Origin: Sinorhizobium arboris LMG 14919
Lineage (GTDB): Bacteria; Pseudomonadota; Alphaproteobacteria; Rhizobiales; Rhizobiaceae
Direction: 5' to 3'
DNA length: 64,000 nucleotides
Assembly (NCBI RefSeq): GCF_000427465.1
Contig: NZ_ATYB01000008.1
Coordinates: 186,001 to 250,000 of the forward strand
Of the stretch, positions 598 to 15,697 are shown piece after piece. How positions within the stretch are numbered: position 1 is the first letter of the stretch; every line of letters starts with the position of its first letter. The position numbers were made by a program, and so were the translations under genes. Below the pieces are notes generated by a model. It saw only the letters and a program-made list of their open reading frames with translations. It made no database searches and was not told the origin of the DNA.

Positions 598-1285
598 GAC
601 GGACAAGCTGGCACTCCGGCGGGAAATGGTGGACATCTGCCGGCGGATGAATTCGAGCGGCATCAACCAGGGCACGGCCGGCAATCTTTCCGTCCGCACC
701 GATGACGGCTTCCTCATCACGCCGTCCTCCATGCCCTATGACACGATGCAGCCGGAAGACCTGGTGGAGATGGGCTTCGACGGCACCTATGTGGGCCATC
801 GGCCCTCATCGGAGTGGCGCTTCCATCGCGACATTCTGCGCGCGCGCACGGATATCGACGTGGTCCTGCATTGCCACTCGATCTACGCGACGACACTCGC
901 ATGCCATCACAAGACCATTCCGAGCTTTCACTACATGACGGGGATTGCCGGCGGCACGACCATCCGCTGCGCCGAATATGCGACCTTTGGCACACAGGCC
1001 CTGTCGGACAATGCGCTTGTCGCGCTCAAGGACCGCCTTGCCTGCCTGCTCGGCCAGCATGGTCAGATATCGCTCGGCAAGACGCTGGAACAGGCCTTGT
1101 GGCTCGCGATCGAAGTCGAAACGCTTTCGCGGATCTATGTCCAGGCTCTCACACTCGGCGAGCCTCCCGTGCTGCCGGACGAGGAAATGGAGCGGGTGAT
1201 CGCCCAGATGCGGCGCATGAGCTATGGCCAGGCGCCGGACCCGGAGGGCGTCAACGACGTGGCGCGCCCGCGCGGCGCCTCGTGA
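590..1285 (+). CDS. Class II aldolase/adducin-family protein, L-fuculose-phosphate aldolase-like
   Basis: A 231-residue protein, close to the size of FucA and AraD. The metal-binding set of the family is visible: Glu75 in SSEWRFH, His94 and His96 in VVLHCHS, and His157 in LLGQHG, matching the Glu-His-His-His zinc ligands of FucA. The N-terminal GTAGNLSVR segment is the usual phosphate-binding loop. Start at 590 because ATG GCT GAG follows AAGGAAAAC and overlaps the kinase stop; the same frame stays open upstream but lies inside the kinase. Expected reaction: retro-aldol cleavage of a ketose 1-phosphate to DHAP and an aldehyde in the cytosol. Related decarboxylases and epimerases share this fold, so the substrate is open. 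Confidence 0.85.
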   Translation: MAETDKLALRREMVDICRRMNSSGINQGTAGNLSVRTDDGFLITPSSMPYDTMQPEDLVEMGFDGTYVGHRPSSEWRFHRDILRARTDIDVVLHCHSIYATTLACHHKTIPSFHYMTGIAGGTTIRCAEYATFGTQALSDNALVALKDRLACLLGQHGQISLGKTLEQALWLAIEVETLSRIYVQALTLGEPPVLPDEEMERVIAQMRRMSYGQAPDPEGVNDVARPRGAS

Positions 1286-1469
1286 GCCGGTGAGATCATT
1301 CCTGCTCGGATGAATTCAGGTTTGAGCCCCGTCCGGTCAGATCGTAACGGCGAAACAGCGGAGCGGGGGCTGAGACGCGGGACGCGGGCGGAAAACCGCA
1401 CACACATTTCCTGGGCTTGCTTCAGCGGCCACCTTCCGGCGGATGGCTCTGGACGGCGTGCGCTGGCCG

Positions 1470-1495
1470 TTGACAAGGCCAGGCATGTATATACA
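1470..1495 (+). promoter_or_regulatory. Promoter element and HutC-type operator before the regulator gene
   Basis: TTGACA at 1470-1475 looks like a -35 element. The perfect palindrome TGTATATACA at 1486-1495 lies just after it, where a repressor would block RNA polymerase. HutC-family regulators bind TGTATATACA-like palindromes, so autoregulation is likely. An ATG at 1485 sits inside the palindrome and is therefore unlikely to be the regulator start. The same 10-mer recurs at 5979-5988. Confidence 0.65.
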
Positions 1496-1532
1496 ATTGC
1501 CGTCACGATTTCTTTTCGGAATATTTTGGAAA

Positions 1533-2285
1533 TTGCGTGATCACCAAACAAATCGCAGGGCCGGCGTTCCGATCAGCCAGCAGATCAAGGAATACATCCT
1601 TGAGGAGATAAGCTCCGGCCGATGGGTGGCAGGGGACAAGGTGCCCTCCGAAGCGCAACTTTCGGAGAGATTCTCCGCTTCTCGCATGACGGTCAACAGG
1701 GCGGTGAGGGAACTGACCGTTGAAGGCCGGCTGCACCGGATTCAGGGCTTGGGCACCTTCGTATCGGATTTCAAGCCGCTTGCGCCGCTGATCGAGATTC
1801 GCAGCATTGCGGAAGAGATCGCCCTGCGCGGCGGCGTTCATTCCTGCACGCCCATCCATGTCGGCGAAGGCCCGGTCACCACTCAGGAGGCGGAGTGGCT
1901 GCGTTTGCCGCCGCGTAGTCGCGTCTATCGGCTCAAAGCGGTCCATAAGCAGGATGGCGTGCCGATCCAGTTCGAAAACCGGATCGTCAATCCCGCCTTC
2001 TGCCCGAATTTTCTCGACCTGGATTTCACCAAGGCGACAGCATCCGACTATCTTCTGAAAAACGTCAAGTTCACCGAGGTCGAGCACCGGGTCGATGCGG
2101 TCCGGCCCACGCCGGAAGTCAGCAAGTTGCTCGAAATCAACGAAAACGACCCCTGCCTTCGGCTAGTGCGCAGAACCTGGTCGGAGGGTCGGCTGATCAC
2201 CTATGTCCAGCTTATCCATCCGGGCGATTCGTTCTGTCTGGTCGGAAGGTTTCAAGGCCGCGGAATCGCAAAGGTAGTCGCATGA
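1533..2285 (+). CDS. hutC-like: HutC-family GntR transcriptional regulator (winged helix plus UTRA domain)
   Basis: About 250 residues from a TTG at 1533. The longer frames from ATG 1443 or 1485 would start upstream of or inside the operator. The N-terminal winged helix shows PISQQIKEYILEEISSGRW, VPSEAQLSERF and SRMTVNRAVREL, then the wing RIQGLGTFV. The C-terminal UTRA ligand domain includes PIQFENRIVNPAFCPNF, a HutC-subfamily hallmark. HutC normally represses histidine use and is released by urocanate. Here no hutU, hutG or hutI is nearby, while its operators precede a MIO-less lyase and a quaternary-amine importer, so thiourocanate or another imidazole acrylate is an attractive inducer (inference). 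The stop overlaps the next ATG by 4 bp. Confidence 0.88.
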   Translation: MRDHQTNRRAGVPISQQIKEYILEEISSGRWVAGDKVPSEAQLSERFSASRMTVNRAVRELTVEGRLHRIQGLGTFVSDFKPLAPLIEIRSIAEEIALRGGVHSCTPIHVGEGPVTTQEAEWLRLPPRSRVYRLKAVHKQDGVPIQFENRIVNPAFCPNFLDLDFTKATASDYLLKNVKFTEVEHRVDAVRPTPEVSKLLEINENDPCLRLVRRTWSEGRLITYVQLIHPGDSFCLVGRFQGRGIAKVVA

Positions 2286-3088
2286 TGATCGCTTGCACAC
2301 GGATGTATAATCTCAACCCGGCGGTGACGGGTCATTGGCGCGATCTCGTCGCCAAGGTTGCCGCAAATGCCGAACTGCGGCTCGAATTCATCGAGTATCC
2401 GGCGCCCCAGCCTCTGGATGAACTGTGGGACCGCCCCGACCTCGGAGCGGTATTCATGTGCGGTTGGCCGTTTCTGAAGCGCTCGCCGGGGCCTCAGATC
2501 GTCGCGGCGCCGATGCCCGACGATCCCGATTGCGAGGGTGCAAGCTATTGCACCCACTTGGTCGTGCGCGCCGATGGACCTTTCGAAACCCTCGAAGACA
2601 CGTTCGGCGGGCGAATCGCATGGACCGATCCCGGCTCGCAATCCTGATTCAATGCGCCGCGCAAACTGCTCCTCCAATATCGGCAGCCGGGCGCAAATCT
2701 CTATCGCGAACACGTCGGGCCGGTGATTACGCCGCGCGCGTCCCTGCAGTCGGTTCTGGAGGGCAGGGCCGATGTGGCGCCGCTCGACAGCTATTTCCAC
2801 GCCCTGCTCAAACGCCACGAACCGGAGACGGCAGGGCGGCTGCGGGTAGTCGCCCGCACGCAGCCCACGGCCAACCCCATGCTCGTCGCCTCGCAGGAGA
2901 TCGATCCGCGGATCGTACGGCGGCTGGGCGAAGCTTTCGAGGAGGCGAGACAGGATCCGGCGCTGCAAACGCACCTGGAAGCGCTTTGCCTGCTCGGCTT
3001 TGCACGCGTTCCCGACCCGGAGCGCTACCGCATCCTGGGCGAATGGGACCGCGAAGCGATCGCTGCAGGTTATCTGATGCCGTGCTGA
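2282..3088 (+). pseudogene. PhnD-like phosphate/phosphonate-binding-type protein gene interrupted by one in-frame TGA
   Basis: The frame from ATG 2282 reads a protein of the PhnD/phosphonate-binding fold without a signal peptide: YNLNPAV near the start, then VVRADGPFETLEDTFGGRIA and WTDPGSQS. A TGA at 2645-2647 follows, and the same frame continues with FNAPRKLL and VITPRASLQSVLEGRADVAP to the stop at 3088. The family usually has SQSGYNALR at this point, so the TGA replaces a Gly codon; GGA to TGA is a single change. No frameshift is involved. The gene is coupled to the HutC-like gene by an ATGA overlap. It may be a real nonsense mutation or a sequencing error. Its role in the cluster is unknown. 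Confidence 0.75.
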
Positions 3089-3098
3089 GACCGGAGCA

Positions 3099-4766
3099 CT
3101 AAAGGCTCCCGCGGCAGAAGCAGGCGCTCGTCACGGCGACATCGGCCCTTGCTTCGGCGAGCGTCAGTTTTTGTCTGACGATGTCGAGCTCGCTGCCGCC
3201 ACCCTTCCGCTCCAGGCATTCAAGCAAGCCGCGCAGGGCCCAGATATTGTCGGGGTGCTGGGTGCAGCGGGCGACCTCGCCGACAAGTCCGAGATCGGCG
3301 CGATAGGCATGTTCGGCTTCGGCGAAACGCCCTTGCTCGGCCAAAAGCGCGCCGAGAGCGTGGCGCGGAGGGTGCATCCAGGCCCATGGCTCGGTATAGG
3401 TCAGGTTGTCGTCGCGCGAAACGGCCCGGCGCAGGCCCTGGAACGCGAGGTCGTAGTTGCCTTTGCGATATTCGAGCTCGCCTTCAAGCATCGCTTCGCC
3501 GACCGCCAGCATATCGGTCACCGGATTGCTGAGAAAAACCATTTCCGTCGGAATATCGGCCAGCAGTGCATGGAAGCGGCGGCGTGCCTGTTCGGCCTCT
3601 TTGATATTGCCGAGCGCGGCATGGGCTACGCCTTTGCCATAGGCATGCATCGCCCGGCGGATCGGGGCGCGCGTTCCATCCGGCTCTTCCACGGCGGAGA
3701 CCAGATCCGCCCATCTGCCGAACCGCACCAGAACATGGGTGCGCATCGCCGAATAGCCGTCCAGAATCGCCGCCATGAAAGGCGGGCTCGTTTCGAGCTG
3801 CTCGGGCGTGGCCTCCGCGCAGATACGGTCGGCCGCATGGAGCGCCTCGCGGTACTGGCCGAGCATCATGGCCGCGAACATGTGAAGGTGCAGATCGTGG
3901 CAGCGGGCAGTGGTGTAGAAATTTCTCGCGCCCCGGCGCGCGACATATTCGTCGTCCTTCGCGACGGCGCGTTTGCTGACGGCGACGGACTGGGCATAGT
4001 CGCCGCATTGCACATAGATATGGGCCGGCATGTGGTGAAAATGCCCCTCGTCGCGGGCGAGATCCCGCATCGCATCGGCGGCCGGCAAGGCCTTCTCGGG
4101 AGTTTGCGACATCTCCAACGCATGAAGATACATGTGGACCAGACCGGGATGCCGGGCCGCCCGCGGATCGTTCATGCCGCGCAGCATCCTGTCGAGCACC
4201 CGGACGCATTCGGCGGCATCCGAGCCGGACAGAGGTTCGCCCGTGCGCAGGTCCCATAGCCGCCGGGGGGTGCGCGTCACCGCCGCTTCGACGAAGAGAG
4301 CGGCGATATCGAGGTCATCCGGAAAGGCTCTGTGGGCGGCGCGCATCCGATCGGTAAATTCGTCATGCCATCGGTTGAGCGTTTCCGGCGGCGCTGCTTC
4401 GGCTTGGGGATACCGGTAACCGATCGCGGCGATCAGAGCGCTTTCCGCCGGCGAAACGCCATCCCTGCAAGCGGCGGCCTTCATCGCCGCCTCATGGCAG
4501 ACGGGCAGGGTCCGCTCGATCTCGGCCTGTGTGAAACGGACCCAGGGGCGATTGTAGAACGGGCCGCTGGCATAGGCTACGCCCCACCAGGCCATGGCGC
4601 AGCCCGGATCGTGTTTCAACGCTTCGCGAAAACACAACACCGCCTCTTCATGGTTATAGCCGTAGGTCCAGGTGAGCCCGCGATCGAACCATCGCTGGGC
4701 GGCCGGTGAAGACGTGGTGATCTCCCGGTGCCCCGCAGCCAGCTGAAAGCAATATTCTTCGTTCAT
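3099..4766 (-). CDS. TPR-repeat protein of unknown function
   Basis: 555 residues with several tetratricopeptide-like helical pairs: an N-terminal one with WFDRGLTWTYGYNHEEAVLCF, central ones around HFHHMPAHIYVQCGDYAQSV and C-terminal ones around ALGALLAEQGRFAEAEHAYR. No signal peptide or membrane segment is seen, so it is probably cytosolic. The start at 4766 follows a strong AGGGAGGAGG ribosome site. It is divergent from the YeiH-type gene and shares the intergenic operators at 4826-4846, which places it in the HutC-like regulon. Several His and Cys residues (HFHHMP, CHDLHLH, CFCRG at the C-terminus) hint at metal or thiol chemistry, but I cannot name a function. Confidence 0.8.
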   Translation of the reverse strand: MNEEYCFQLAAGHREITTSSPAAQRWFDRGLTWTYGYNHEEAVLCFREALKHDPGCAMAWWGVAYASGPFYNRPWVRFTQAEIERTLPVCHEAAMKAAACRDGVSPAESALIAAIGYRYPQAEAAPPETLNRWHDEFTDRMRAAHRAFPDDLDIAALFVEAAVTRTPRRLWDLRTGEPLSGSDAAECVRVLDRMLRGMNDPRAARHPGLVHMYLHALEMSQTPEKALPAADAMRDLARDEGHFHHMPAHIYVQCGDYAQSVAVSKRAVAKDDEYVARRGARNFYTTARCHDLHLHMFAAMMLGQYREALHAADRICAEATPEQLETSPPFMAAILDGYSAMRTHVLVRFGRWADLVSAVEEPDGTRAPIRRAMHAYGKGVAHAALGNIKEAEQARRRFHALLADIPTEMVFLSNPVTDMLAVGEAMLEGELEYRKGNYDLAFQGLRRAVSRDDNLTYTEPWAWMHPPRHALGALLAEQGRFAEAEHAYRADLGLVGEVARCTQHPDNIWALRGLLECLERKGGGSELDIVRQKLTLAEARADVAVTSACFCRGSL

Positions 4767-4807
4767 CGCCCACCTCCTCCCTGTCTTATAGGCCGAGCGT
4801 TCGGCCG

Positions 4808-4846
4808 TTGACGAGTCACGCTATCGTATATACTCTTATATACAAG
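4808..4846. promoter_or_regulatory. Divergent promoter with two HutC-type operators
   Basis: GTATATAC at 4826-4833 is a perfect palindrome. CTTATATACAAG at 4835-4846 is a near match to CTTGTATATACAAG. TTGACG at 4808-4813 could be a -35 box for the rightward gene, with TATACT at 4829-4834 as a -10 inside the operator. The pair lies between the leftward TPR gene and the rightward transporter gene, so one repressor could control both. Confidence 0.6.
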
Positions 4847-4940
4847 TAGGGGGCGCAATCGCAAGGCGGGGGCGGCGCTGTGCTACCCCGGAGGGTTGCG
4901 GGTTGCACTGTTCATTCGGGTGGGGGCGAGCGGGCGAGGC

Positions 4941-5951
4941 ATGCATGTAAAGTTCAAGCCGCATGCGGACCGATTGCGGTCCATTGCTCCCGGGCTGCTG
5001 ATAGCCGCCTTCGTGGCACTGGCGGCGCAATTCCTGTCGGAGCATTACGGCGTACCGGCCATGCTCATGGCCCTGCTGCTCGGCATGACCGTCACCTTCC
5101 TGTCGGAGTCGGGGCGTTGCGTGGAGGGAGTGAACTTTTCGGCCCGGTCGTTGCTGAGACTCGGCGTGGCGCTGCTGGGGGTGCGGATCAGTTTCGGGGC
5201 GCTGATCGAACTTGGTCCGGCAATGATACTGCTCGTGGTTCTGGCGGTTGTCTGCACCACCCTTTTCGGTTTCTTCGGCGCCAGACTGATGGGACGGGGA
5301 TGGCGTTTCGGCGTGCTGACCGGCGGCTCTGTGGCGATCTGCGGCGCGTCGGCCGCCATGGCCCTGGCGGCCGTCTTGCCCCGCGACGAAAGGTCCGAAC
5401 TCGATCTGACCTTTACGGTGTTGGGCGTGACCCTGCTCAGCACCCTGACGATGATCCTCTATCCTGTGCTTGCCACGTGGCTGAACTTCGACGACGTTTC
5501 CGCGGGACTGTTCCTCGGCGGCACCATTCACGACGTTGCCCAGGTCGTCGGGGCCGGCTACTCGGTCTCGGAGGTGGCGGGGGACACCGCGACGCTGGTC
5601 AAGCTGATCCGGGTCGCCATGCTGGCACCGGTGGTCATCACATTGGTCGCGCTGTTGCGGTTCCGCACGAATGGATCGCCAGGCGGGAGGGCCGGGGCAC
5701 GCCTGGTTCCGACCTTCCTGGCCGGCTTCGCCGCCATCGCGGGGCTGAACTCGGCCGGCCTCCTGCCGCAAGCAGTCGTCCTTCTCATCAGCGACATTTC
5801 GAGGTGGCTGCTGCTGATCGCCATAGCCGCGGTCGGCATCAAGACTTCTGCTCGCACCGTACTGGAGGTCGGTCCGCAGGCGATGATCCTCCTTATGGCG
5901 GAAACGCTTTTCATCGCGGCCTGGGTCGTCGTTGGGTTGCACCTCTTGTAA
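4941..5951 (+). CDS. YeiH/UPF0324-family membrane protein, putative sulfate/sulfite exporter
   Basis: About 336 residues with some ten hydrophobic segments and conserved YeiH-family stretches: VNFSARSLLRLGVALLGVRIS, GGSVAICGASAAMALAAVLP and GGTIHDVAQVVGAGYSVS. Family members are annotated as putative sulfate exporters and few have been tested. The start is uncertain: ATG 4941 gives the best N-terminus, while TTG 4896 would add 15 residues of unconvincing sequence; neither has a well-spaced ribosome site. It lies downstream of the two HutC-type operators. A sulfur-anion exporter fits a pathway that breaks down a sulfur compound such as ergothioneine, but this link is inference. Confidence 0.82.
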   Translation: MHVKFKPHADRLRSIAPGLLIAAFVALAAQFLSEHYGVPAMLMALLLGMTVTFLSESGRCVEGVNFSARSLLRLGVALLGVRISFGALIELGPAMILLVVLAVVCTTLFGFFGARLMGRGWRFGVLTGGSVAICGASAAMALAAVLPRDERSELDLTFTVLGVTLLSTLTMILYPVLATWLNFDDVSAGLFLGGTIHDVAQVVGAGYSVSEVAGDTATLVKLIRVAMLAPVVITLVALLRFRTNGSPGGRAGARLVPTFLAGFAAIAGLNSAGLLPQAVVLLISDISRWLLLIAIAAVGIKTSARTVLEVGPQAMILLMAETLFIAAWVVVGLHLL

Positions 5952-5991
5952 GAGCGATTACGCGGATTTGTATATATGTGTATATACAAAT
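5946..5991 (+). promoter_or_regulatory. Promoter and large HutC-type operator before the lyase-transporter operon
   Basis: A perfect 11-bp inverted repeat, ATTTGTATATA (5966-5976) and TATATACAAAT (5981-5991), is separated by TGTG. The right half contains the 10-mer TGTATATACA (5979-5988), identical to the site before the regulator gene. TTGTAA at 5946-5951 and TGTATA at 5969-5974 are 17 bp apart and could be the -35 and -10 elements, so repressor binding would cover the -10. Confidence 0.65.
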
Positions 5992-6057
5992 CAACCGAAA
6001 TGCGTTAGGTGTCGGTGTCTGTTCGCCGATGCCAGACCCTGGAAGACAGAGCATGAT

Positions 6058-7641
6058 ATGACGCATAATCCGCTTCACACCATATCCCTGGCCGGCAAGC
6101 CGCTGAACTTCGCGGAACTTGTCTCCATCGGCGCCCGGCAGGCGGTTCTCCGGGCTGGCCCCGAGGCCATGGCAAGGGTGGCCGCGGCCCGTGCCGTGGT
6201 CGACGCCGCACTGGCGCAGAACAAACCGATCTATGGTTCGACCACCGGCGTCGGCGCCATGAAGGAAGTGGCCTGGGCGGAAAATCAGCTGGATACGTTC
6301 AACATGGGTCTGGTGCGGGCCCACCACTTCGGCACTGGAGAGCCATTTTCCGACAAGGTGATCCGCACCGCCATCGCCATTCGCGTCAATACTCTGCTGA
6401 CCGGCCGTGTGGGCTGCACCACCGGACTGGTCGATGCCTATCTTGCGCTCTTGTCCACCGATGTGGTGCCGGTCGTGCGGCGCACCGGTTCGATCGGCTG
6501 CGCCGACATCGGGCTGATGGGGCAAATAGGGGCCGTGCTGACGGGTGTGGGAGAAGCCGTTTTCGCAGGAAGGCGCCTTCCGGCCGATGAGGCGCTCGCA
6601 GCAGCCGGGATCGAGCCAATTCGGCTGGCGCCGCGCGATAGTTTGGCAGCGGTTTCCACAAATGCAGTGGGATATGCGGCGGCCGCCCATGCCGTGCGTG
6701 CGGCGGCGACGGTGGTGCGGGTGATGCTGGCCACGGGGCTGACGACAGCCGGCGCGCTTGGCGCCTCGCGTGATCCGTGGAGAGCCACGGCCCATGTCGG
6801 CAATGCACATGAGGCCGTCATCGGCGCCTGGCTCTATGCTAATGCCAAGGGGTGGGACTGGCCCGATGCCACCCATATCCAGGATCCGCTCAGCATAAGA
6901 ATGATGAGCCAAGTCTTCGCGACTGCTTTCGACGTGCTGACGAAAGCCGGAAATGTCCTGCTCGACGCGACCGGCCGCACCGACGACAATCCGGTGGTCT
7001 GCGACGGGGAGGTGCTGACCTCGGGCGGTTCCCTGCCACTCGAAGTCACAGTCGCGATCCAGTCGGCCCAGATCGCGCTGGCGCATGTGGCGCGCAATTC
7101 CTTCAACCGCTGCGTGCTTCTCGGCAATGGTGGTCGGCGCGGTCTGCCGGTCAACCTGGTCATGCCGGGGGCAATTGCCACTGGTTTCGGACCTGCGATC
7201 AAGCTGGCAGGGGAGTTGTTCGCCCGTGTTCTGACCATGATGAATCCGATTTCGGCCAGCTCGGTCGTGGTGGCCGGCGGGCTGGAGGATGAAGCGGCCT
7301 TCCTGCCTCTGGTCGTCGAGCGCTTCGAGCGCCAGGTGGCGACACTCGAGCGTCTCGCTGCGCTCGAGAGCATCCTGGCGGCCCAGGCCATGGACATTTC
7401 CGGGGACCGGCCGGATTGCGTAGCCGGCATGATCTACGAGCTGACGCGTCGACACTCCGAAACCTATGTCACGGACCGCCCGCTCTCCGCCGAGGTTGAG
7501 GCGGTGGAACAGGCGTTATCCACGCCGGCCACGCTTGCCGAACTGATTTCCCATGCGTCGCTCGCGGACGTGGATACGTTCTTCGCGCTCGGCGGCGTCG
7601 GCGATTGCAACCGCCAAGGTTCGCTGCCCCTGACGGGATAG
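6058..7641 (+). CDS. HAL/PAL-superfamily lyase lacking the MIO triad; candidate ergothionase (ergothioneine trimethylammonia-lyase)
   Basis: 527 residues with the fold and active-site landmarks of histidine ammonia-lyase: Tyr59 in IYGSTTGVG, Gln275-Arg281 in QDPLSIR, RTDDNPVV, SGGSLPLE, MNPISASS and Glu410-Asp411. At the MIO site the canonical GSxGASGDL is instead GSIGCADIG: Cys148-Ala149-Asp150 replace Ala-Ser-Gly, so the methylidene-imidazolone group cannot form as usual. Ergothionase, which removes trimethylamine from ergothioneine to give thiourocanate, belongs to this superfamily and works without MIO. A HutC-type operator upstream and a quaternary-amine importer immediately downstream fit that reaction. 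Alternatives are hercynine or another betaine as substrate, or a non-lyase role. ATG 6058 starts beyond the operator; the same frame stays open upstream through it. Confidence 0.8.
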   Translation: MTHNPLHTISLAGKPLNFAELVSIGARQAVLRAGPEAMARVAAARAVVDAALAQNKPIYGSTTGVGAMKEVAWAENQLDTFNMGLVRAHHFGTGEPFSDKVIRTAIAIRVNTLLTGRVGCTTGLVDAYLALLSTDVVPVVRRTGSIGCADIGLMGQIGAVLTGVGEAVFAGRRLPADEALAAAGIEPIRLAPRDSLAAVSTNAVGYAAAAHAVRAAATVVRVMLATGLTTAGALGASRDPWRATAHVGNAHEAVIGAWLYANAKGWDWPDATHIQDPLSIRMMSQVFATAFDVLTKAGNVLLDATGRTDDNPVVCDGEVLTSGGSLPLEVTVAIQSAQIALAHVARNSFNRCVLLGNGGRRGLPVNLVMPGAIATGFGPAIKLAGELFARVLTMMNPISASSVVVAGGLEDEAAFLPLVVERFERQVATLERLAALESILAAQAMDISGDRPDCVAGMIYELTRRHSETYVTDRPLSAEVEAVEQALSTPATLAELISHASLADVDTFFALGGVGDCNRQGSLPLTG

Positions 7642-7653
7642 GTTTTGGAGAAG

Positions 7654-7669
7654 CCCGGCCGGTGCCGGG
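7654..7669 (+). repeat. Short intergenic hairpin between lyase and binding-protein genes
   Basis: CCCGGC (7654-7659), loop CGGT, GCCGGG (7664-7669). No T-run follows, so it is more likely an mRNA-stability or processing element than a terminator; the operon appears to continue. Confidence 0.35.
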
Positions 7670-7684
7670 AATACGGAGGAGCCC

Positions 7685-8596
7685 ATGCGACTGACAAGAG
7701 TAATGACGATATTCGCCGCCGCCTTTGCCCTATCGGCCGGTATCGCGAGCGCCCAGGTGGTCGTTTCGTCCAAGATCGACACCGAGGGCGGGGTTCTGGG
7801 CAACATCATCAAACAGGTTCTGGAAGCCAACCGGATTCCGGTCGAAAACCGTATTCAGCTGGGGGGAACACCGATCCTGCGCAAGGCCATCACCGCCGGC
7901 GAGGTCGACATCTATCCGGAATACACCGGCAACGCCGCATTCTTCTTCGAGAAGGCCGGCGACCCCGTTTGGAACGACGCTGAAAAGGCATATCAGGAGG
8001 CTTCGCGGCTCGATCTCGAGGCCAACCGCATCGTCTGGCTGACCCCCTCGCCGGCGAATAATACCTGGGCGGTGGCGATCCGAAAGGAACTCGCCGAGGC
8101 CAACAATCTGAAAACCTTCAGCGAGTTCGGCGCCTTTGTCGCGGCCGAGGGCGCGGTGAAGCTGGCGGCCTCGTCGGAATTCGTGAATTCGCCGGCTGCC
8201 CTGCCCAAGTTCCAGGAGGTCTACGGCTTCAGGCTTTCGCCTGATCAGTTGATCACTCTTTCGGGAGGCGATACGGCCGCAACGATCGCTGCCGCGGCCC
8301 AGCAGACCAACGGTGCGAATGCCGCCATGGTCTACGGAACAGATGGCGGCATCGCGCCCTCGGGCCTGGTGGTTCTGGAAGACGACAAGCGCGTCCAGCC
8401 GGTCTATCAGCCCGCCCCGCTCATCCGCGAGGAGGTATTGGCCAAATACCCGCAGATTGCCGATCTGCTCAAGCCGGTATTCCTGAGCCTGACGCTGGAG
8501 GTCCTGCAGGACCTTAACGGCCGCGTACAGGTGGGCGGCGAAGCGGCCGCGGCAGTGGCCGCCGATTACCTCGCGAAAAACGGTTTCGTGAAATAG
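7685..8596 (+). CDS. OsmF/YehZ-type quaternary-amine ABC transporter, periplasmic binding protein
   Basis: 303 residues starting after GGAGGAGCCC. Residues 1-23 form a signal peptide ending in GIASA-Q. The mature part has the OpuC/OsmF binding fold: SSKIDTEGGVLGNIIKQVLE, GTPILRKAITAGEVDIYPEY and TYP-like TGNAAFFFEKA, the strand layout of glycine-betaine, choline and carnitine receptors. Members of this fold also bind ergothioneine in the EgtU-type systems. It is the first of four importer genes directly after the MIO-less lyase. Aromatic residues expected to cage a trimethylammonium group cannot be assigned without a structure model. Confidence 0.88.
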   Translation: MRLTRVMTIFAAAFALSAGIASAQVVVSSKIDTEGGVLGNIIKQVLEANRIPVENRIQLGGTPILRKAITAGEVDIYPEYTGNAAFFFEKAGDPVWNDAEKAYQEASRLDLEANRIVWLTPSPANNTWAVAIRKELAEANNLKTFSEFGAFVAAEGAVKLAASSEFVNSPAALPKFQEVYGFRLSPDQLITLSGGDTAATIAAAAQQTNGANAAMVYGTDGGIAPSGLVVLEDDKRVQPVYQPAPLIREEVLAKYPQIADLLKPVFLSLTLEVLQDLNGRVQVGGEAAAAVAADYLAKNGFVK

Positions 8597-8621
8597 GCCC
8601 GGCCGCCTGGCAAGACCAGAA

Positions 8622-8650
8622 GCAGGGCGGCACCTGACCTGCCGTCCTGC
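8622..8650 (+). repeat. Stable hairpin after the binding-protein gene
   Basis: An 11-bp stem GCAGGGCGGCA / TGCCGTCCTGC with one G-U pair and a 7-nt loop, 25 bp after the binding-protein stop and before the permease. No T-run follows. Such hairpins often let the binding protein be made in excess over the membrane subunits. Similar ones follow two other binding-protein genes here. Confidence 0.5.
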
Positions 8651-8742
8651 CCCCAAGCGACATGATTTCAAAGCGTTGTGGCGTTTCGCTGTCGAGTGAA
8701 ACGTCTAGGGGGCCCCTCGGGCACCCGCGTTGGAGAACCCGT

Positions 8743-9939
8743 ATGAGCAGAGCCGAAACCATCAGCGCAAGCAAACGTCCCATCTGGCCGGCGGTCGACA
8801 GGCTCGGCGTGCTGATCGCTCTTATCGCCATCATCGGGGCAGTGCTGCCCTTCGCTCTCTTTCGTGCCAACCGCATCGTTTCCGGGGAGGGCCGGAGCCT
8901 GACAGAAAGCCTTCCCGCGCCGCAGGCGGGCCTGCTGGCAGCCCTCCTTGCGATGAGCCTTCTGGCGGCGCTGCTGCGGATACGCCCCGTCATCAAGCTG
9001 GGAAGCGGCGCGGTGGCACTTGCCGGGCTTTTCCTGTTGGCCGGCGTGGCGGCCAGCACCCTGACGCCGCCTGAAAACAATTTTGCGCGCGTGTCCCCCG
9101 CGTCCGGTTTTTGGCTGCTGGTGTGCGCAAACGCGCTTCTGGTGGCCGATGCACTGACGCGCCTGCAGCTCGGGCCGTGGCCGCGTATCGCCATCCTGAT
9201 ATCGACCTCAGCCGGCTTCGCCGTCTTGCTCGCAAGCGGCGCCTGGAACGACCTTTCCATTCTGAAGGAATACGCAGTCCGCGCGCCGGCCTTCTGGCAG
9301 GAAGCCCGCATCCATCTTTTGTTGACCTTCGGCTCGGTGGCCGCCGCGATCGCCATAGGCATTCCGCTCGGCATATTCTGCTACAAGGTTCCGGTCTTGC
9401 GCGCTGCGGTGCTCAATTTCCTCAATATCGTGCAAACCATCCCTTCCATCGCCCTGTTCGGCCTCCTGATTGCGCCGATGGCCTGGCTTGCCGCCAACAT
9501 GCCCGCCGCCGCCGCCATGGGCGTGTCGGGCATCGGCGTCGCGCCGGCCCTGGTCGCGCTTTTCGCCTATTCGCTGTTGCCCGCGGTCTCCAACACGGTG
9601 GTCGGCCTGATGGGCGTGTCTCCTGCCGCGGTCGATGCGGCACGCGGGATGGGCATGACCGGGGCGCAGCGCCTTGTCGGCGTCGAACTGCCTCTTGCCT
9701 TTCCGGTAATTCTGACGGGCATCCGCATCGTTCTCGTGCAGACGATCGGCCTGGCCACCATTGCCGCGCTGATCGGCGGCGGCGGCTTTGGCGTATTCGT
9801 GTTCCAGGGCATCGGCCAGACGGCGATGGACCTGGTGCTGCTTGGCGCGGTGCCGACCGTGGCGCTCGCTTTCGCGGCGGCCGTAGTGCTCGACGCGGCC
9901 GTGGAAATGATAAGCCGTGAGGAGGCGAAAACGCCATGA
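8743..9939 (+). CDS. Quaternary-amine ABC transporter permease with N-terminal membrane extension (YehY-type)
   Basis: 398 residues from ATG 8743, preceded by GGAGAA at 5-nt spacing; the frame is open upstream to 8662 but without a good ribosome site. The N-terminal ~180 residues carry four hydrophobic segments, an extension typical of YehY. The C-terminal ~210 residues are the OpuCB-type permease domain with IVQTIPSIALFGLL and the EAA-like loop AARGMGMTGAQRLVGVELP that contacts the ATPase. The stop overlaps the ATPase start by 4 bp (ATGA). Confidence 0.88.
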   Translation: MSRAETISASKRPIWPAVDRLGVLIALIAIIGAVLPFALFRANRIVSGEGRSLTESLPAPQAGLLAALLAMSLLAALLRIRPVIKLGSGAVALAGLFLLAGVAASTLTPPENNFARVSPASGFWLLVCANALLVADALTRLQLGPWPRIAILISTSAGFAVLLASGAWNDLSILKEYAVRAPAFWQEARIHLLLTFGSVAAAIAIGIPLGIFCYKVPVLRAAVLNFLNIVQTIPSIALFGLLIAPMAWLAANMPAAAAMGVSGIGVAPALVALFAYSLLPAVSNTVVGLMGVSPAAVDAARGMGMTGAQRLVGVELPLAFPVILTGIRIVLVQTIGLATIAALIGGGGFGVFVFQGIGQTAMDLVLLGAVPTVALAFAAAVVLDAAVEMISREEAKTP

Positions 9940-10868
9940 TCGAAATCGACCGCATTACCAAAGCCTATGGCCGGGCCGTCGTGGTTGAAGAGGTGAGCCT
10001 GACGATCGAGCCGCACAGTATTTGTACGGTGGTAGGCACGTCCGGTTCGGGCAAGACCACGCTGATGCGCATGATCAACCGTCTGGTCGAGCCGACGGCC
10101 GGGCGAATCCGCATCGACGGGCAGGACGTGAACGAGGTTCCGGCTTACGAACTGCGTCGGCGCATAGGCTATGCGATCCAGGGAAATGGTCTGTTCCCGC
10201 ACCGGACGGTGGGACAGAATATCGCTACGGTGCCGCGGCTGCTCGGCTGGGACGACAAGCGTATCGCCGCCCGGGTGGACGAGCTGCTGGGCCTTTTCCA
10301 GCTCGATCCCGCCAAGTATCGGGACCGCATGCCGCATGAGCTTTCCGGCGGGCAGCAGCGGGTCGGGGTGGCCCGCGCCCTGGCGGCCGAACCCAAGATC
10401 CTGTTGATGGACGAGCCCTTCGGTGCCTTGGATCCGGTGATCAGGACCAAGGCGCAGGACGATCTCCTCGCCATTCAGAAACGGTTCGGAACCACCATCC
10501 TGCTGGTGACGCACGACATGGAGGAGGCGATCCGTCTGAGCGACCGCATCGCCGTGATGGACAAGGGCAAGCTCTTGCAATATGCCCCGCCCGCCGAGAT
10601 CGTCGCCCGTCCCGCCACCGGTTTCGTGGCCGAACTGCTGGGTCCGTCGGATCGCGCCTTCCGCCTCCTGTCGCTGTCACGGCTGGGCGATCATGCCGAG
10701 CCGGGCGAGGCCACGGGCGCGCCGCTTTGCGCCGGCGCGAGCCTGCGGGACGCCTATTCGGAGCTTCTGTGGTCGGGCAGGCAGGCAGCCCCGGTGGAGG
10801 CCGACGGCAAGCTGATCGGCCGTATCCGGCTTGAAATGCTGACCAGACTTGCGGTGGCGCCGAAATGA
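9936..10868 (+). CDS. Quaternary-amine ABC transporter ATP-binding protein (YehX/OpuCA-type)
   Basis: 310 residues with Walker A GTSGSGKTT (about residue 34), Q-loop in GYAIQGNGLFPH, signature LSGGQQRVGVARAL, Walker B ILLMDEPFGALD and switch histidine in LVTHDMEEA. The C-terminal ~75 residues look like a short, degenerate CBS-type regulatory tail. The gene overlaps both neighbours by 4 bp, so the importer is made as a unit. It powers uptake of the substrate bound by the 7685-8596 product. Confidence 0.9.
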   Translation: MIEIDRITKAYGRAVVVEEVSLTIEPHSICTVVGTSGSGKTTLMRMINRLVEPTAGRIRIDGQDVNEVPAYELRRRIGYAIQGNGLFPHRTVGQNIATVPRLLGWDDKRIAARVDELLGLFQLDPAKYRDRMPHELSGGQQRVGVARALAAEPKILLMDEPFGALDPVIRTKAQDDLLAIQKRFGTTILLVTHDMEEAIRLSDRIAVMDKGKLLQYAPPAEIVARPATGFVAELLGPSDRAFRLLSLSRLGDHAEPGEATGAPLCAGASLRDAYSELLWSGRQAAPVEADGKLIGRIRLEMLTRLAVAPK

Positions 10869-11611
10869 CCGCCGGGACCCTTGTAAGACTTGCTGCGCTC
10901 GCCGCGCTCGCGCTTCTTCTGCTGCGGCCGGAGCTCTTCGCGGGATTCTTCGCGCTGTTCGCAAATCCGGAACAGCCGGTCATCTACAATCAGGGCAACC
11001 TGCTGAACATCACCGTCAGCCATGTCGCGATCGTAGCGGTGGCAGTGCTGGCCTCGAGCGTGGTCGCCGTTGCGCTGGGGATATTGGTGACCCGGCCGGC
11101 GGGGGCGGATTTCCTGCCGCTTTCTCGCGCCATAGCCAATATCGGCCAGACCTTTCCGCCGGTCGCGGTCCTGGCGCTGACCGTTCCGCTGCTGGGCTTC
11201 GGCACGGCGCCAACTCTGGTCGCGCTCTTTCTGTACGGTCTTCTGCCGGTGTTCGAAAACACGCTGGCGGGTTTTACCACACTGCCGTCTTCCGTGATCG
11301 AAGCCGCTCGGGGTATGGGCATGACCGGCCGGCAGCGCCTTCTTAAGGTGGAACTGCCACTCGCCCTGCCGGTGATCCTGGCCGGCGTACGGCTATCGAC
11401 CGTCATCGCCCTGGCAACGGCCACCATCGGTTCGACCGTGGCGGCGCGCACGCTGGGCGAGGTGATCATTGCGGGCCTGCTTTCGAGCAACACGGCCTTC
11501 GTGCTGCAAGGCGGGCTGATCGTCGGCGCGCTTGCGATCCTGATCCATGACGCGCTGTCGGCGCTCGAGCGTTGGCTGACGGCACGCAACGGCCAGAAGG
11601 GGCGCAGCTAA
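10865..11611 (+). CDS. Quaternary-amine ABC transporter permease (YehW-type)
   Basis: 248 residues, five to six membrane segments, with IGQTFPPVAVLALT and the ATPase-contact loop AARGMGMTGRQRLLKVELP, closely matching the loop in the 8743-9939 permease. An ATGA overlap couples it to the ATPase gene. It ends one base before the converging GMC dehydrogenase stop, so no room remains for a terminator and the two transcripts must read into each other or end inside coding sequence. Confidence 0.88.
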   Translation: MTAGTLVRLAALAALALLLLRPELFAGFFALFANPEQPVIYNQGNLLNITVSHVAIVAVAVLASSVVAVALGILVTRPAGADFLPLSRAIANIGQTFPPVAVLALTVPLLGFGTAPTLVALFLYGLLPVFENTLAGFTTLPSSVIEAARGMGMTGRQRLLKVELPLALPVILAGVRLSTVIALATATIGSTVAARTLGEVIIAGLLSSNTAFVLQGGLIVGALAILIHDALSALERWLTARNGQKGRS

Positions 11612-11612
11612 A

Positions 11613-13235
11613 CTAACCGCGCAGGATCGCCTCGGCTGCCTTTTCGGCAATCATGATGACCGGAGAATTGGTGTTGCCCGAGACGATGGTCGGCATGATC
11701 GAGGCGTCGACGACGCGCAAGCCGTCAAGACCGTGGACTTTCAGCGAAGGATCCACCACTGCCAATGGATCGCTGCCCATTTTGCAGGTGCCCACCGGGT
11801 GGAAGATCGTCGTCGCTATGTCGCCGGCGCGCCGAACGAGTTCCGCCTCGCTCTGGAACTCGACGCCGGGCAGCATTTCCGCCGGCTTGAATCTTGCGAT
11901 CGCCTTCGTCGCCATGAGGTTGCGGGCGTGGCGGATCGCCTGCGCCGCAAGCAGCCTGTCGCCGGCGGTCGACAGGTAGTTCGGCCGGATCTCCGGCGCG
12001 GGCGACGGCTCGGCGGTCGTGACATGCACGCTGCCCCGGCTTTCCGGCCTCAGGTTGCAGACCGAAACGGTGACCGCCGGATATTTGTGCAGCGGCTCTC
12101 CCAGGCGGTCGGTGCTCAGCGGCTGGACATGGTATTCGAGGTCGGCGGTCGCCACCGACGGACTGCTCTTTGCAAATATCCCGAGCTGGCTCGGCGCCAT
12201 GGACAATGGACCGGCACGCCTCAGCACGTATTCGAGGCCCATGCCCATGCGGGAAAAAGCGCTGTGATAGAGCTGGTTCAGCGTCTTCGCCCCTTCGATG
12301 CGGAAGACGGTGCGGATCTGCAGATGATCCTGCAGGTTTTCGCCGACACCCGGGAGGTCGTGGACCACCTCTGCGCCGGCCGCCGAGACGATATCCGGCC
12401 GGCCGACTCCCGATAGTTCGAGGATTTTCGGCGAGTTGATCGCGCCTGCGGAAAGGATCACCTCGCGCGTGGCGCGCGCCATCTGGATGCGGCCGTTCAA
12501 CCGGAAGCGCACGCCCTTCGTCCGGCGGCCGTCGAAGATCAGACGCTCCGTCTCGGCGCCCGTCAGCACACGGAGATTTGGCCGCTTCATGGCAGGGCGC
12601 AGGAAGGCCTTGGTCGTGTTCCAGCGCACACCGCCGCGCTGGTTCACCTCGAAATAGCCGGATCCCTCGTTGTCGCCGGTGTTGAAATCCTCGGTCTTCG
12701 GAATGCCGAGCTCTTCGGCGGCATCGCGAAAAGCGTCGAGGATCGGCCAGGACAGCCGCTGCCGTTCGACCCGCCATTCCCCGCCCGCGCCGTGCATCGG
12801 CGACTTGCCGCGGAAATTGTCTTCCGACTTCAGGAAATAGGGCAGGACATCGTCCCAGCCCCAGCCGGTATTGCCGGCCTGGCGCCAGCCGTCGTAGTCG
12901 GCCGCCTGGCCGCGCATATAGATCATGCCGTTGATCGAAGAACAGCCGCCGAGCAGCTTGCCGCGAGGATAGGGGAGGCTCCGGCCATTGAGACCGGCCT
13001 CCGCAGCCGTCCTCATCATCCAGTCGGTGCGCGGATTGCCCATGCAGTAGAGATAGCCGATCGGCACATGCACCCAGTGATAGCGGTCGCTGCCGCCGGC
13101 TTCGAGCAGCAGGACCCGATTTTTCGGGTCGGCCGAAAGGCGGTTGGCAAGCACGCAGCCTGCGGAACCGGCGCCGATGACGATGAAATCGTAGGTGCCC
13201 GCGTCGGCTATCGTCTCTTCCATGTGAGGGTTCAC
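11613..13235 (-). CDS. GMC-family FAD-dependent alcohol/choline-type dehydrogenase
   Basis: 540 residues. The FAD dinucleotide motif [15 protein letters not shown] is near the start, followed by LLLEAGG and the GMC signature [20 protein letters not shown]. The catalytic His lies in [12 protein letters not shown] and the second catalytic residue in [20 protein letters not shown] 13235 overlaps the kinase stop (GTGA); an ATG at 13223 is an alternative. It closes a nine-gene sugar operon, so oxidation of a polyol or sugar in that pathway is more likely than choline oxidation, although it also faces the quaternary-amine importer. Confidence 0.87.
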
Positions 13236-14761
13236 GCAGCAGCTCCCGTCTTCATCGCCTGCATTGCCGAAAGCCGTTGCCAGAGCGGGGTCATGGCCTC
13301 CGCTATCTCCCTGTAGATTGCGTATCGCCGGGCATAGTGCGCTTCCAGCGCCGTGTTCGGTCGATAGTGCCGCTCGGTTCTCACCATGGCGGCAGCCCCA
13401 TCGGCGAAGTCGGAGAAAATGCCGACGCCGGTACCGGCGGCGATTGCCGCCCCCAGTGCGCCCGTCTCACGCGAGCGGGCAACGGAGACCGGGACGCCGA
13501 GAACGTCGGCGAATATCTGCGGCCATACGAGACTGCGCGAGCCGCCGCCGGAAAGCACCGCCTCGCCGAAGGCCGCACCTGCTTTCCGCATCGTCTCGAT
13601 GTGCTGGCGATGGCCGAAGGCCACCCCTTCCAGGACCGCGCGGACGAGTTGGCCTTTCGTGTGCCAGCCGGCGATCCCGTAGAACCCGGCGCGCGCGCTG
13701 CCGTCCTGCTGGGCGCCGTAAAGATAGGGGTGGTAGAGGGGGTCGTCGGACGCCGGATCGCTTAAGGACGCGAGTTCGCAGCAGAGGTCGAAGGGCGAGC
13801 GCCCATCGGAACGCACCTCGGAAAAGAACTCTCGCACCAGCCATTCGAGGTTTGCGGCGGAGGTCGCGCTGGACTCGATCGCCATGTAGCGGTCGCGGTC
13901 GAAAGTCGACGACATGAACACCGGGCCCTGGAGCTGCGGGCGTTCGATGATCACCTGGTTGATGCTCCAGGTCCCGGCGATGATGGAAGCCGCCCCGGTG
14001 CGGGTGACCCCGGAGCCGATCGCGGAGGCGACCACGTCGAAGAGACCGCCGACAACAGGCGTTCCCGCGGCAAGCCCTGTCTCGGCCGCGGCTGCTTCGG
14101 TGATGCGGCCGGCGATGTCGGCGCTTTCCACGAGCGGCGGCAGGAGGTGCATGGATTCAGAGAGCCCGTAAGCTGCCATGAGTTCCCGGTCGTAGTGCCG
14201 GCCGGCGACGTTGAGCAAACCGCAGCCGGTCATGTCCGAGACGTCGCTGACGCGCGCGCCCGTCAGCCGGTTGACGATGAAGTCCTTGCAGAGAAAGACC
14301 GTGCCGATACTGGCGAAGACCTCCGGCCGGTGCCGTTTCAGCCAGGCGAGCAGGGTAGGGGTCTGCGAGGGCCAGGGCCGTTGCTGACCGATCGGATAGG
14401 TCCGGTCGCCGACGCCTTGCGACGTCCACTCTTCGAGAAGCGCCGCCGCCCGGGTGTCGAGCGATTGGATGCCGAGAAGCGGATGCCCCTCATGGTCGAG
14501 CGCGTAGAGCCCGTTGCCATGGCCCGCGCAGCCGATCGCCGTGATTTCGACGGCGTCGATCCCGGCCTCATCGACACATGCGCGGATGACCCGGCGCGCA
14601 TTCTCCCAAAGCTCGTCCAGGCCGCGCTCGACATGGCCGGGGAACGGCATCCGGCTGTGCCCTTCCGCCGCAGCCGAAGCGATCTCCTCGCCCGCCCGGT
14701 CGAAGATCACCGCCTTGATGACGGTGTTTCCGGCGTCGAGCCCCAATAGATAGTCTCCCAT
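13232..14761 (-). CDS. FGGY-family carbohydrate kinase (L-xylulose/erythritol kinase-like)
   Basis: 509 residues, full length for FGGY kinases. N-terminal [18 protein letters not shown] binds phosphate; [13 protein letters not shown] carries the likely catalytic Asp; the C-terminal nucleotide-binding part shows [20 protein letters not shown] and [12 protein letters not shown]. It sits between the aldolase and GMC genes in the operon. Phosphorylation of a ketose or polyol before aldol cleavage is the expected role; which sugar is not visible. Confidence 0.87.
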
Positions 14762-14791
14762 GCTGAACCCCTCCCAAGGTCCGATATCCGA

Positions 14792-15634
14792 TCAGCCTTG
14801 ACGATACAGCGCGAAAGCCTCTTCACCGCTCGCATTCTCGTGCACGATCGCCATCAATCCGCGCACCACGGCTTTCGGATTGGAGTGCTGATAGATGTTG
14901 CGCCCATAAACCATGCCCATAGCCCCCTGCTTCATCAAGGCCGCCGACTTGTCGAAGACGGATCTCAGATCCTCCTTGCCGCCGCCGCGAACAAGAACCG
15001 GGCAACGCGCCGCTTCGACCACCCGGTGGAAATCTTCAGCAGCGGTGGTCGGGTCCGCCTTGACGATGTCGGCGCCCATCTCCCGGGCAAGCCGTGTCAG
15101 CGTGACGATCTTGTCGGCATCGCCGTCGACCATGTAGCCGCCATGCTCGGTAACCGGCTGCATGACGAGCGGCTCTATCATCAGCGGCATGCCGTACTTC
15201 TCGCAATCGGCCCGCACTCGGGCGATGTTCTGCACGCATTGGCGGAAAAGATCCGGTTCGTCCGGCAGCATGAACAGGTTGACGACGACGCAGGCCGCGT
15301 CCATCGCGAGCGCGCCGATCAGCGGCTCGGCCTCGTTCTGCAGCACCGCCCACATGTCGCGGTGGCGAATACGGTTATAGGGATTGCCCATGTCGATGCG
15401 CATGACGAGCGCCGGTTTGTCCTTGCCCGGCAGTTCCTGCAGCAGATCGGCCTGGCCGTAATTCATCTGGATCGCGTCGGGGCCGGCCTCGGTAAGCGCG
15501 CTTACCACGGCCCCCATGTTCTCGAGCCCGTTCAGGAAGGATGGTTCGTTGCACACTCCGTGATCGATCGCCACGTCCAGGCAGCGCCCGCCGTTGAAAA
15601 GGCGGTTCATCCGCACCTTGCTATTGTTTCTCAT
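14792..15634 (-). CDS. Class I (Schiff-base) aldolase of the DhnA/LsrF/DeoC type
   Basis: 280 residues, a TIM barrel with the DhnA/LsrF pattern: CLDVAIDHGV near the start, MRIDMGNPY, and the likely Schiff-base Lys192 in GADIVKADPTT. C-terminal VLVRGGGKED and GMVYGRNIYQH form the phosphate-binding loops. The neighbouring kinase would supply a phosphorylated substrate, and cleavage would release a triose phosphate that the GlpD-like enzyme or glycolysis could use. Family members act on fructose bisphosphate, AI-2 products or other keto-sugar phosphates. Confidence 0.82.
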   Translation of the reverse strand: MRNNSKVRMNRLFNGGRCLDVAIDHGVCNEPSFLNGLENMGAVVSALTEAGPDAIQMNYGQADLLQELPGKDKPALVMRIDMGNPYNRIRHRDMWAVLQNEAEPLIGALAMDAACVVVNLFMLPDEPDLFRQCVQNIARVRADCEKYGMPLMIEPLVMQPVTEHGGYMVDGDADKIVTLTRLAREMGADIVKADPTTAAEDFHRVVEAARCPVLVRGGGKEDLRSVFDKSAALMKQGAMGMVYGRNIYQHSNPKAVVRGLMAIVHENASGEEAFALYRQG

Positions 15635-15697
15635 TTTCTTCTCCTTCTTCGTATCTGCGTGCTGCCGGAATCGAGGCCACCATAAAAGATTGCGGTA

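Follow-up and report, generated by a model that had tools for sequence, protein, structure and literature searches.

The described systems closest to the locus reported here act in the breakdown of ergothioneine and related compounds. In the Ert operon, whose later genes are covered by NCBIfam models (NF058530, NF058529, NF058538 and NF058540), the standard route releases sulfide. The lyase of Treponema denticola, an ergothionase (PDB 6s7j and 6s7q), reportedly also accepts the sulfonate of ergothioneine, and a bacterial pathway for ergothioneine sulfonate is said to have been published by Yan, Huang and Zhang in 2022, a paper cited in PMC13405746 and PMC9967237. A plasmid of Paracoccus saliphilus (NZ_CP067141.1) carries a further related cluster. 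Here, we analyzed a 64,000-nucleotide stretch of Sinorhizobium arboris LMG 14919 DNA (hereafter the window), which spans positions 186001-250000 of contig 2 in a 6.85-Mb genome of 7 contigs. Sequence comparisons indicate that window positions 1291-11619 are a horizontally acquired chimeric island with two sources, in which a HutC-family repressor and a YeiH-family putative exporter are combined with an ergothionase-type lyase and an OsmF-type importer. With confidence somewhat short of even, we read this island as a HutC-controlled trimethylamine-lyase module, perhaps for oxidized ergothioneine (the sulfonate), in which sulfur would leave as sulfite and urocanate would pass to resident Hut enzymes.

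The borders of the island (1291..11619, no strand assigned) were defined by the S. kummerowiae plasmid backbone, which flanks it on both sides and shows no homology to it: the blastn match, at 91-92% identity, stops at 1290 and restarts at 11620. In DNA comparisons, the left part (1569-5917) is homologous to the P. saliphilus plasmid and the right part (6058-11586) to a Devosia ergothioneine operon. Left-half proteins are 69-77% identical to those of P. saliphilus, and right-half proteins are 73-79% identical to those of the Devosia-type operon (L188), whose later ergothioneine genes are absent after the right half in the window. The left half, comprising genes for HutC, a PhnD-like protein, a tetratricopeptide repeat (TPR) protein and YeiH together with two operators, is collinear with the Paracoccus-type island. 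There, the order is hutC, PhnD, TPR, OCD and YeiH, followed by a hut set with a lyase lacking the 4-methylideneimidazole-5-one (MIO) triad. Unlike that cluster, the window has neither the OCD gene nor the hut genes, its PhnD-like gene is interrupted, and its lyase is of a different lineage (30% identity). Such an arrangement suggests that recombination can rewire ergothioneine-related catabolism, with the first enzyme and importer retained, the later enzymes lost, HutC-type switching gained, and an exporter of the sulfite type gained with it.

Vertical inheritance within the genus was considered and ruled out. A related lyase occurs in 12 of 32 other genomes of the genus, at 52-53% identity, and adjoins ErtD-E-C-B in all seven of these 12 that were fetched; the genus lyases also fall in a clade different from that of the window lyase (see below). 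At the position of the island, the S. kummerowiae plasmid has a different 4.6-kb stretch (L206:8093-12677), which encodes another TPR-like protein of 592 amino acids (aa) with 31% identity; the site may therefore be an insertion hotspot.

The lyase (6058..7641, + strand, 527 aa) matches PF00221 with 284 bits and has GSIGCADIG where HutH has GSVGASGDL, which agrees with an earlier note on this DNA that had described a MIO-less histidine ammonia-lyase homologue. Its best solved relative is the T. denticola ergothionase, which likewise has no MIO triad but is distant (161 bits, versus 148 for histidine ammonia-lyase). We built a tree of 63 lyases, comprising that of the window, 46 of the 74 relatives with gene calls, 11 from fetched regions and five from plasmids; genes were called by a codon-usage caller, and over-long calls were trimmed to the last 535 residues. 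The window lyase is nested in Devosiaceae (support 95/89 with 18 rows and 100/99 with 28 rows) on a long branch (0.54), and three lyases of the genus, together with one of the same family, belong to a different clade.

Gene neighborhoods point in the same direction. The relatives examined were the best 80 of 208, 12 of which were shorter than 21 kb and thus without full flanks, and neighbors were scored by identity and length thresholds of our own within at most 10 kb on each side. To name the later ergothioneine genes, example proteins were scored with curated equivalog models: a Rhizobium protein scored 1062 against thiourocanate hydratase (cut-off 930), and proteins of a Devosia locus scored 593 against thiohydantoin desulfurase (cut-off 440), 780 against ErtD (600) and 584 against ErtE (520). 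At least one of these genes was near the lyase in 65 of the 80 relatives and all four in 57, and the same OsmF-type importer was present in 33, including 22 with all four later genes. By its phylogeny and the operon context of its relatives, the window enzyme is predicted to be an ergothionase-type lyase of the clade found in the Ert operon. In contrast to that operon, the window has no later genes adjacent and adds HutC-type control and YeiH.

A second HutH-like lyase is encoded elsewhere in this genome (L177:10981; contig 4, about 2569000). It is 39% identical to P. saliphilus HutH, is also without the ASG triad (GSVGYLTHAAAIG), and is accompanied by a separate HutC-like regulator (42%) as well as an ABC transporter and a HutF-like gene.

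Four genes on the + strand after the lyase encode the importer: an OsmF-type betaine-binding protein (7685..8596), an ABC transporter permease of 398 aa (8743..9939, PF00528), an ATPase (9936..10868, PF00005) and a second permease of 248 aa (10865..11611). The last was recognized by homology, being 73% identical to a Devosia-type permease with DNA homology up to 11586. The binding protein scored 483 against the OsmF equivalog NF049931 (cut-off 400), so the complete OsmF-type importer proposed earlier was recovered, through 11611. Its supposed likeness to EgtU-type ergothioneine importers was not: although the EgtU importer has a binding protein of the same superfamily, the window protein matches OsmF much better (464 bits to 4nd9, versus 112 bits to EgtUC), and an EgtU-type importer was ruled out. 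To our knowledge, the natural substrate of the OsmF importer is unclear. The solved chains closest to the window protein are named glycine-betaine-type binding proteins, and these matches, like the equivalog score, would suit an ordinary glycine-betaine importer lying beside an unrelated lyase. The presence of the importer near ergothionase-type lyases in 33 relatives, 22 of them with the full set of later genes, makes this highly improbable. Its recurrent place near the lyase suggests instead a role with ergothioneine, and connects the OsmF importer to ergothionase-type lyases.

The later steps of ergothioneine degradation were then considered. The earlier note had placed them outside the window, and indeed none adjoins the lyase; ErtD and ErtE are not among the genes next to it, no genome-wide search having been made for these two. 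The thiohydantoin desulfurase family, PF06032, had no match in the genome. Thiourocanate hydratase was not found in the genome either, and the suggested search for a hutU-like form of it returned one urocanase, which is HutU-like: this single PF01175 match scored, over the matched domain, 305 bits as HutU versus 243 bits as thiourocanate hydratase, adjoins hutH, and is 85% identical to hutU of P. saliphilus, whose urocanase is also HutU by score. A complete ergothioneine operon was thereby ruled out. Thus, the ergothioneine degradation regulon proposed earlier holds for the ergothionase-type lyase, the importer context and the shared operators, but not for the desulfurase and thiourocanate hydratase. 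The missing later steps suggest that the product bypasses the known Ert route, and hint at a different, less studied route.

For comparison, PF06032 was present in 16 of 17 hand-picked other genomes with this class of lyase (8/9 and 8/8). The second eight genomes were chosen, from 15 such loci, for a lyase without nearby ert genes (L007, L032, L034, L037, L040, L053, L078 and L079); PF06032 lay elsewhere in all eight, and split ergothioneine gene sets therefore seem common. The only comparison genome without PF06032, G214, has the lyase and the importer. It would fit a truncated ergothioneine module, in which importer and lyase would act on ergothioneine itself, trimethylamine would serve as a nitrogen source, thiourocanate would be released or handled by other enzymes, and YeiH and the TPR protein would be passengers that came with the captured regulatory half. 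We regard this explanation of the island as rather unlikely, though it is the alternative we take most seriously. It agrees with the placement of the lyase in the ergothioneine-operon clade, with the later genes near 65 of 80 relatives, and with thiourocanic acid having been reported, in the available text of PMC13405746, to cross-feed gut bacteria. On the other hand, a putative operator upstream of the lyase (operator C, below) groups it with the YeiH unit, and the retention of PF06032 in all eight genomes whose lyase lacks ert neighbors makes its loss unusual.

The clue to the fate of sulfur is YeiH, a putative sulfite/sulfate exporter of 336 aa (4941..5951, + strand) with 76% identity to its P. 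saliphilus counterpart. The YeiH-type gene noted earlier is present, but as a divergent family member: it scored 223 bits against PF03601 (cut-off 24.5) and 153 bits against TIGR00698, below the cut-off of 232.6. YeiH is described as the main factor in Salmonella sulfite resistance in the available text of PMC12880088. In P. sediminicola, a YeiH relative adjoins the sulfonate genes xsc and pta. Genes for HutC, YeiH, the TPR protein, OCD and PhnD were near none of the 80 ert-type lyases. Because YeiH is tied to sulfite and the Ert route to sulfide, a YeiH-type cluster more likely handles a sulfite-yielding substrate, of which ergothioneine sulfonate is one example. The sulfonate pathway of Yan and coworkers may share a trimethylamine lyase and the release of oxidized sulfur with the window, and the left half may belong to that published pathway and hence not be new.

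YeiH accompanies MIO-less lyases of other lineages on four plasmids, from P. saliphilus, Rhizobium NXC14, Rhizobium WSM1689 and Polaromonas JS666. All four carry PhnD and an OCD-family gene, and HutC is found in P. saliphilus, NXC14 and WSM1689. The viewed stretches of these plasmids have neither a desulfurase nor a thiourocanate hydratase annotated, the rest of those genomes not having been searched. The Rhizobium and Polaromonas clusters (L254, L261 and L260) have YeiH, a MIO-less lyase and PhnD as gene content in common with the window, and the Rhizobium ones also HutC and an OsmF-like binding protein; they differ in the lyase lineage and in having OCD, and the Rhizobium clusters also in having CoA-transferase, SDR and MaoC genes. 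Besides P. saliphilus, seven of 211 records with PhnD matches were opened (NXC14, WSM1689, Polaromonas, Martelella, Comamonadaceae, Rhodococcus and Terrarubrum). YeiH was in view in three of these loci, and the lyase was MIO-less in four, an ordinary HutH in two and unannotated in one. Martelella has HutC, OCD, PhnD and a MIO-less lyase that is preceded by an exact operator, and no YeiH in view. It is possible, although we hold this with more reserve than the module itself, that these clusters form a plasmid-borne, sulfite-releasing family for oxidized ergothioneine or its kin, composed of a MIO-less trimethylamine lyase, YeiH, OCD-family and PhnD-like genes and often HutC. The island would then be a natural hybrid, the regulator and exporter of this family having captured a lyase and an importer of the ergothioneine type.

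The plasmid clusters that combine a MIO-less lyase with OCD-family and PhnD-like genes (L254:1-11067, L261:225-12067, L260:2922-9828 and L259:4472-12073), which variously add YeiH, HutC and betaine-type binding proteins, are also of interest in their own right. They possibly represent a further pathway for a urocanate derivative, and their chemistry is directly testable.

The HutC-family repressor (1533..2285, + strand, 250 aa) is 74% identical to P. saliphilus HutC. It scored 266.9 bits against TIGR02018 (cut-off 220), in support of the HutC-family sensor recognized earlier, and 204 against PRK14999, below the cut-off of 424. Its start, formerly placed at 1470, is likely a TTG at 1533; position 1470 would instead belong to the -35 box of a putative sigma70-like hutC promoter (1470..1497, + strand; TTGACA-16-TACAAT, 11/12 match). 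The starts of the lyase, YeiH and first permease were likewise corrected, to 6058, 4941 and 8743, and with these exceptions all the parts named in the earlier note were present where it had placed them, by profile matches or homology. One promoter-like site was found in 1200-12000, which is no more than chance (shuffle mean 1.6); the putative promoter is credited not because of this count but because identical hexamers, identically spaced, occupy the same place at P. saliphilus hutC.

Three HutC-type operators, with no strand assigned, were identified. Operator A (ATGTATATACAA, 1485..1496) overlaps the -10 box of the putative hutC promoter, operator B (GTATATACTCTTATATACAA, 4826..4845) lies between the divergent TPR and YeiH genes, and operator C (5965..5992), a perfect inverted repeat with 12-bp arms and a 4-bp gap, is located upstream of the lyase. 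The search pattern, TTGTATATACAA with up to two mismatches, occurred three times in the window, versus 0.14 expected, always inside the cluster, and none of 100 shuffles reached three; at one mismatch, it occurred at four places in the genome, two of them in this cluster. P. saliphilus has near copies of operators A and B at equivalent positions, the counterpart of B lying between OCD and YeiH. HutC is reported to bind TGTA-N2-TACA in the available text of PMC12977541; this motif could be fitted at 1486-1495 and 5979-5988, and site B deviates from it on one side. None of the 80 relatives had such an operator ahead of its lyase in a scan of 500 bases before the match start with start codons unchecked, and among the openly licensed papers listed by our searches, no title or abstract described an ergothionase under HutC. 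The operators appear to join the regulator, TPR/YeiH and lyase in one putative regulon.

Control by HutC could also be explained by a module for hercynine (histidine betaine), from which the lyase would produce trimethylamine and plain urocanate, the latter inducing HutC and feeding the resident Hut pathway. HutC does score as a histidine-utilization repressor, homologues of HutU, HutI and HutF reside in the genome, and the hut set of P. saliphilus has its MIO-less lyase immediately after hutU. We nevertheless consider hercynine distinctly unlikely: YeiH would be without a role if no sulfur were released, relatives of the lyase accompany thiourocanate hydratase and desulfurase, and none of the openly licensed papers searched mentioned hercynine, trimethylamine and urocanate together.

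In the mechanism that we infer for the sulfonate module, including the lyase reaction, substrate, inducer, sulfite export, desulfonating step and Hut link, HutC would repress all three transcription units and the OsmF importer would take up an ergothioneine-type betaine. The lyase would split off trimethylamine, leaving a urocanate derivative, and this derivative, or urocanate itself, would release HutC. The most likely substrate would be oxidized ergothioneine (sulfonate), with ergothioneine itself and hercynine as the other candidates. Sulfur would exit as sulfite via YeiH after a putative desulfonating step, and the urocanate part would pass to the resident HutU, HutI and HutF, assigned by homology.

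Several observations weigh against this proposal. The window lyase is closest to ergothioneine-type enzymes and not to the lyases accompanied by YeiH elsewhere, being only 30% identical to that of P. saliphilus and 29% to that of Rhizobium NXC14. The cluster has no OCD gene, the best OCD relative in the genome being only 28% identical, and the only PhnD-like copy is the interrupted one; a sulfonate route built on these two would therefore be incomplete here. With up to two mismatches, the operator pattern is not enriched genome-wide (31 places, versus 40 for the reversed control). Finally, no YeiH, HutC, OCD or PhnD was annotated in view in the lyase regions of P. seriniphilus (MIO status of its lyase unchecked) and S. 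meliloti pSymA; the unannotated lyase region of P. denitrificans was left out.

The PhnD-like gene (2282..3088, + strand) is interrupted by an in-frame TGA at 2645-2647, with PF12974 matching the second piece, and is probably a pseudogene; P. saliphilus carries an intact relative. This interruption and the missing OCD gene raise the question of whether the island is a recombinant acquisition that is losing function. The long lyase branch fits such decay, as does the finding that, of 229 columns that hardly vary among 53 relatives, the enzyme deviates at 11, compared with 0 to 7 in seven left-out controls; the lyase has thus drifted or specialized. However, the reading frames for HutC, the TPR protein, YeiH, the lyase and the four importer components are all open and each operator is well formed, and we consider decay very unlikely.

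Of the two genes that the earlier note had singled out as possible new parts, both were located, but the PhnD-like one is interrupted as described. The other encodes the TPR protein (3099..4766, - strand, 555 aa), which matches several TPR models and is 77% identical to its P. saliphilus counterpart. Its predicted fold (mean pLDDT 90.8) resembles only generic TPR superhelices, with TM scores of at most 0.43 by query length among the 50 matches listed. Its family is very large, with 5266 of the 7997 candidates scored reaching E <= 1e-100, and a C-terminal Cys-x-Cys was invariant in 20 of 20 aligned members. Among 18 genome regions fetched, 12 were chosen for TPR matches and three for YeiH. PhnD and TRAP genes were near the TPR gene in three of the 12 (G612, G705 and G782), and the other nine showed no common gene context around it. 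No lyase was present among the gene calls of the three YeiH-chosen regions, and none was annotated in view for two plasmid TPR matches that were opened.

Beyond the right border of the island, the backbone genes at window positions 11613-17431, named by eye, resemble a sugar/polyol catabolic set and include a GMC oxidoreductase, an FGGY-type kinase, an aldolase and a GlpD-like dehydrogenase.

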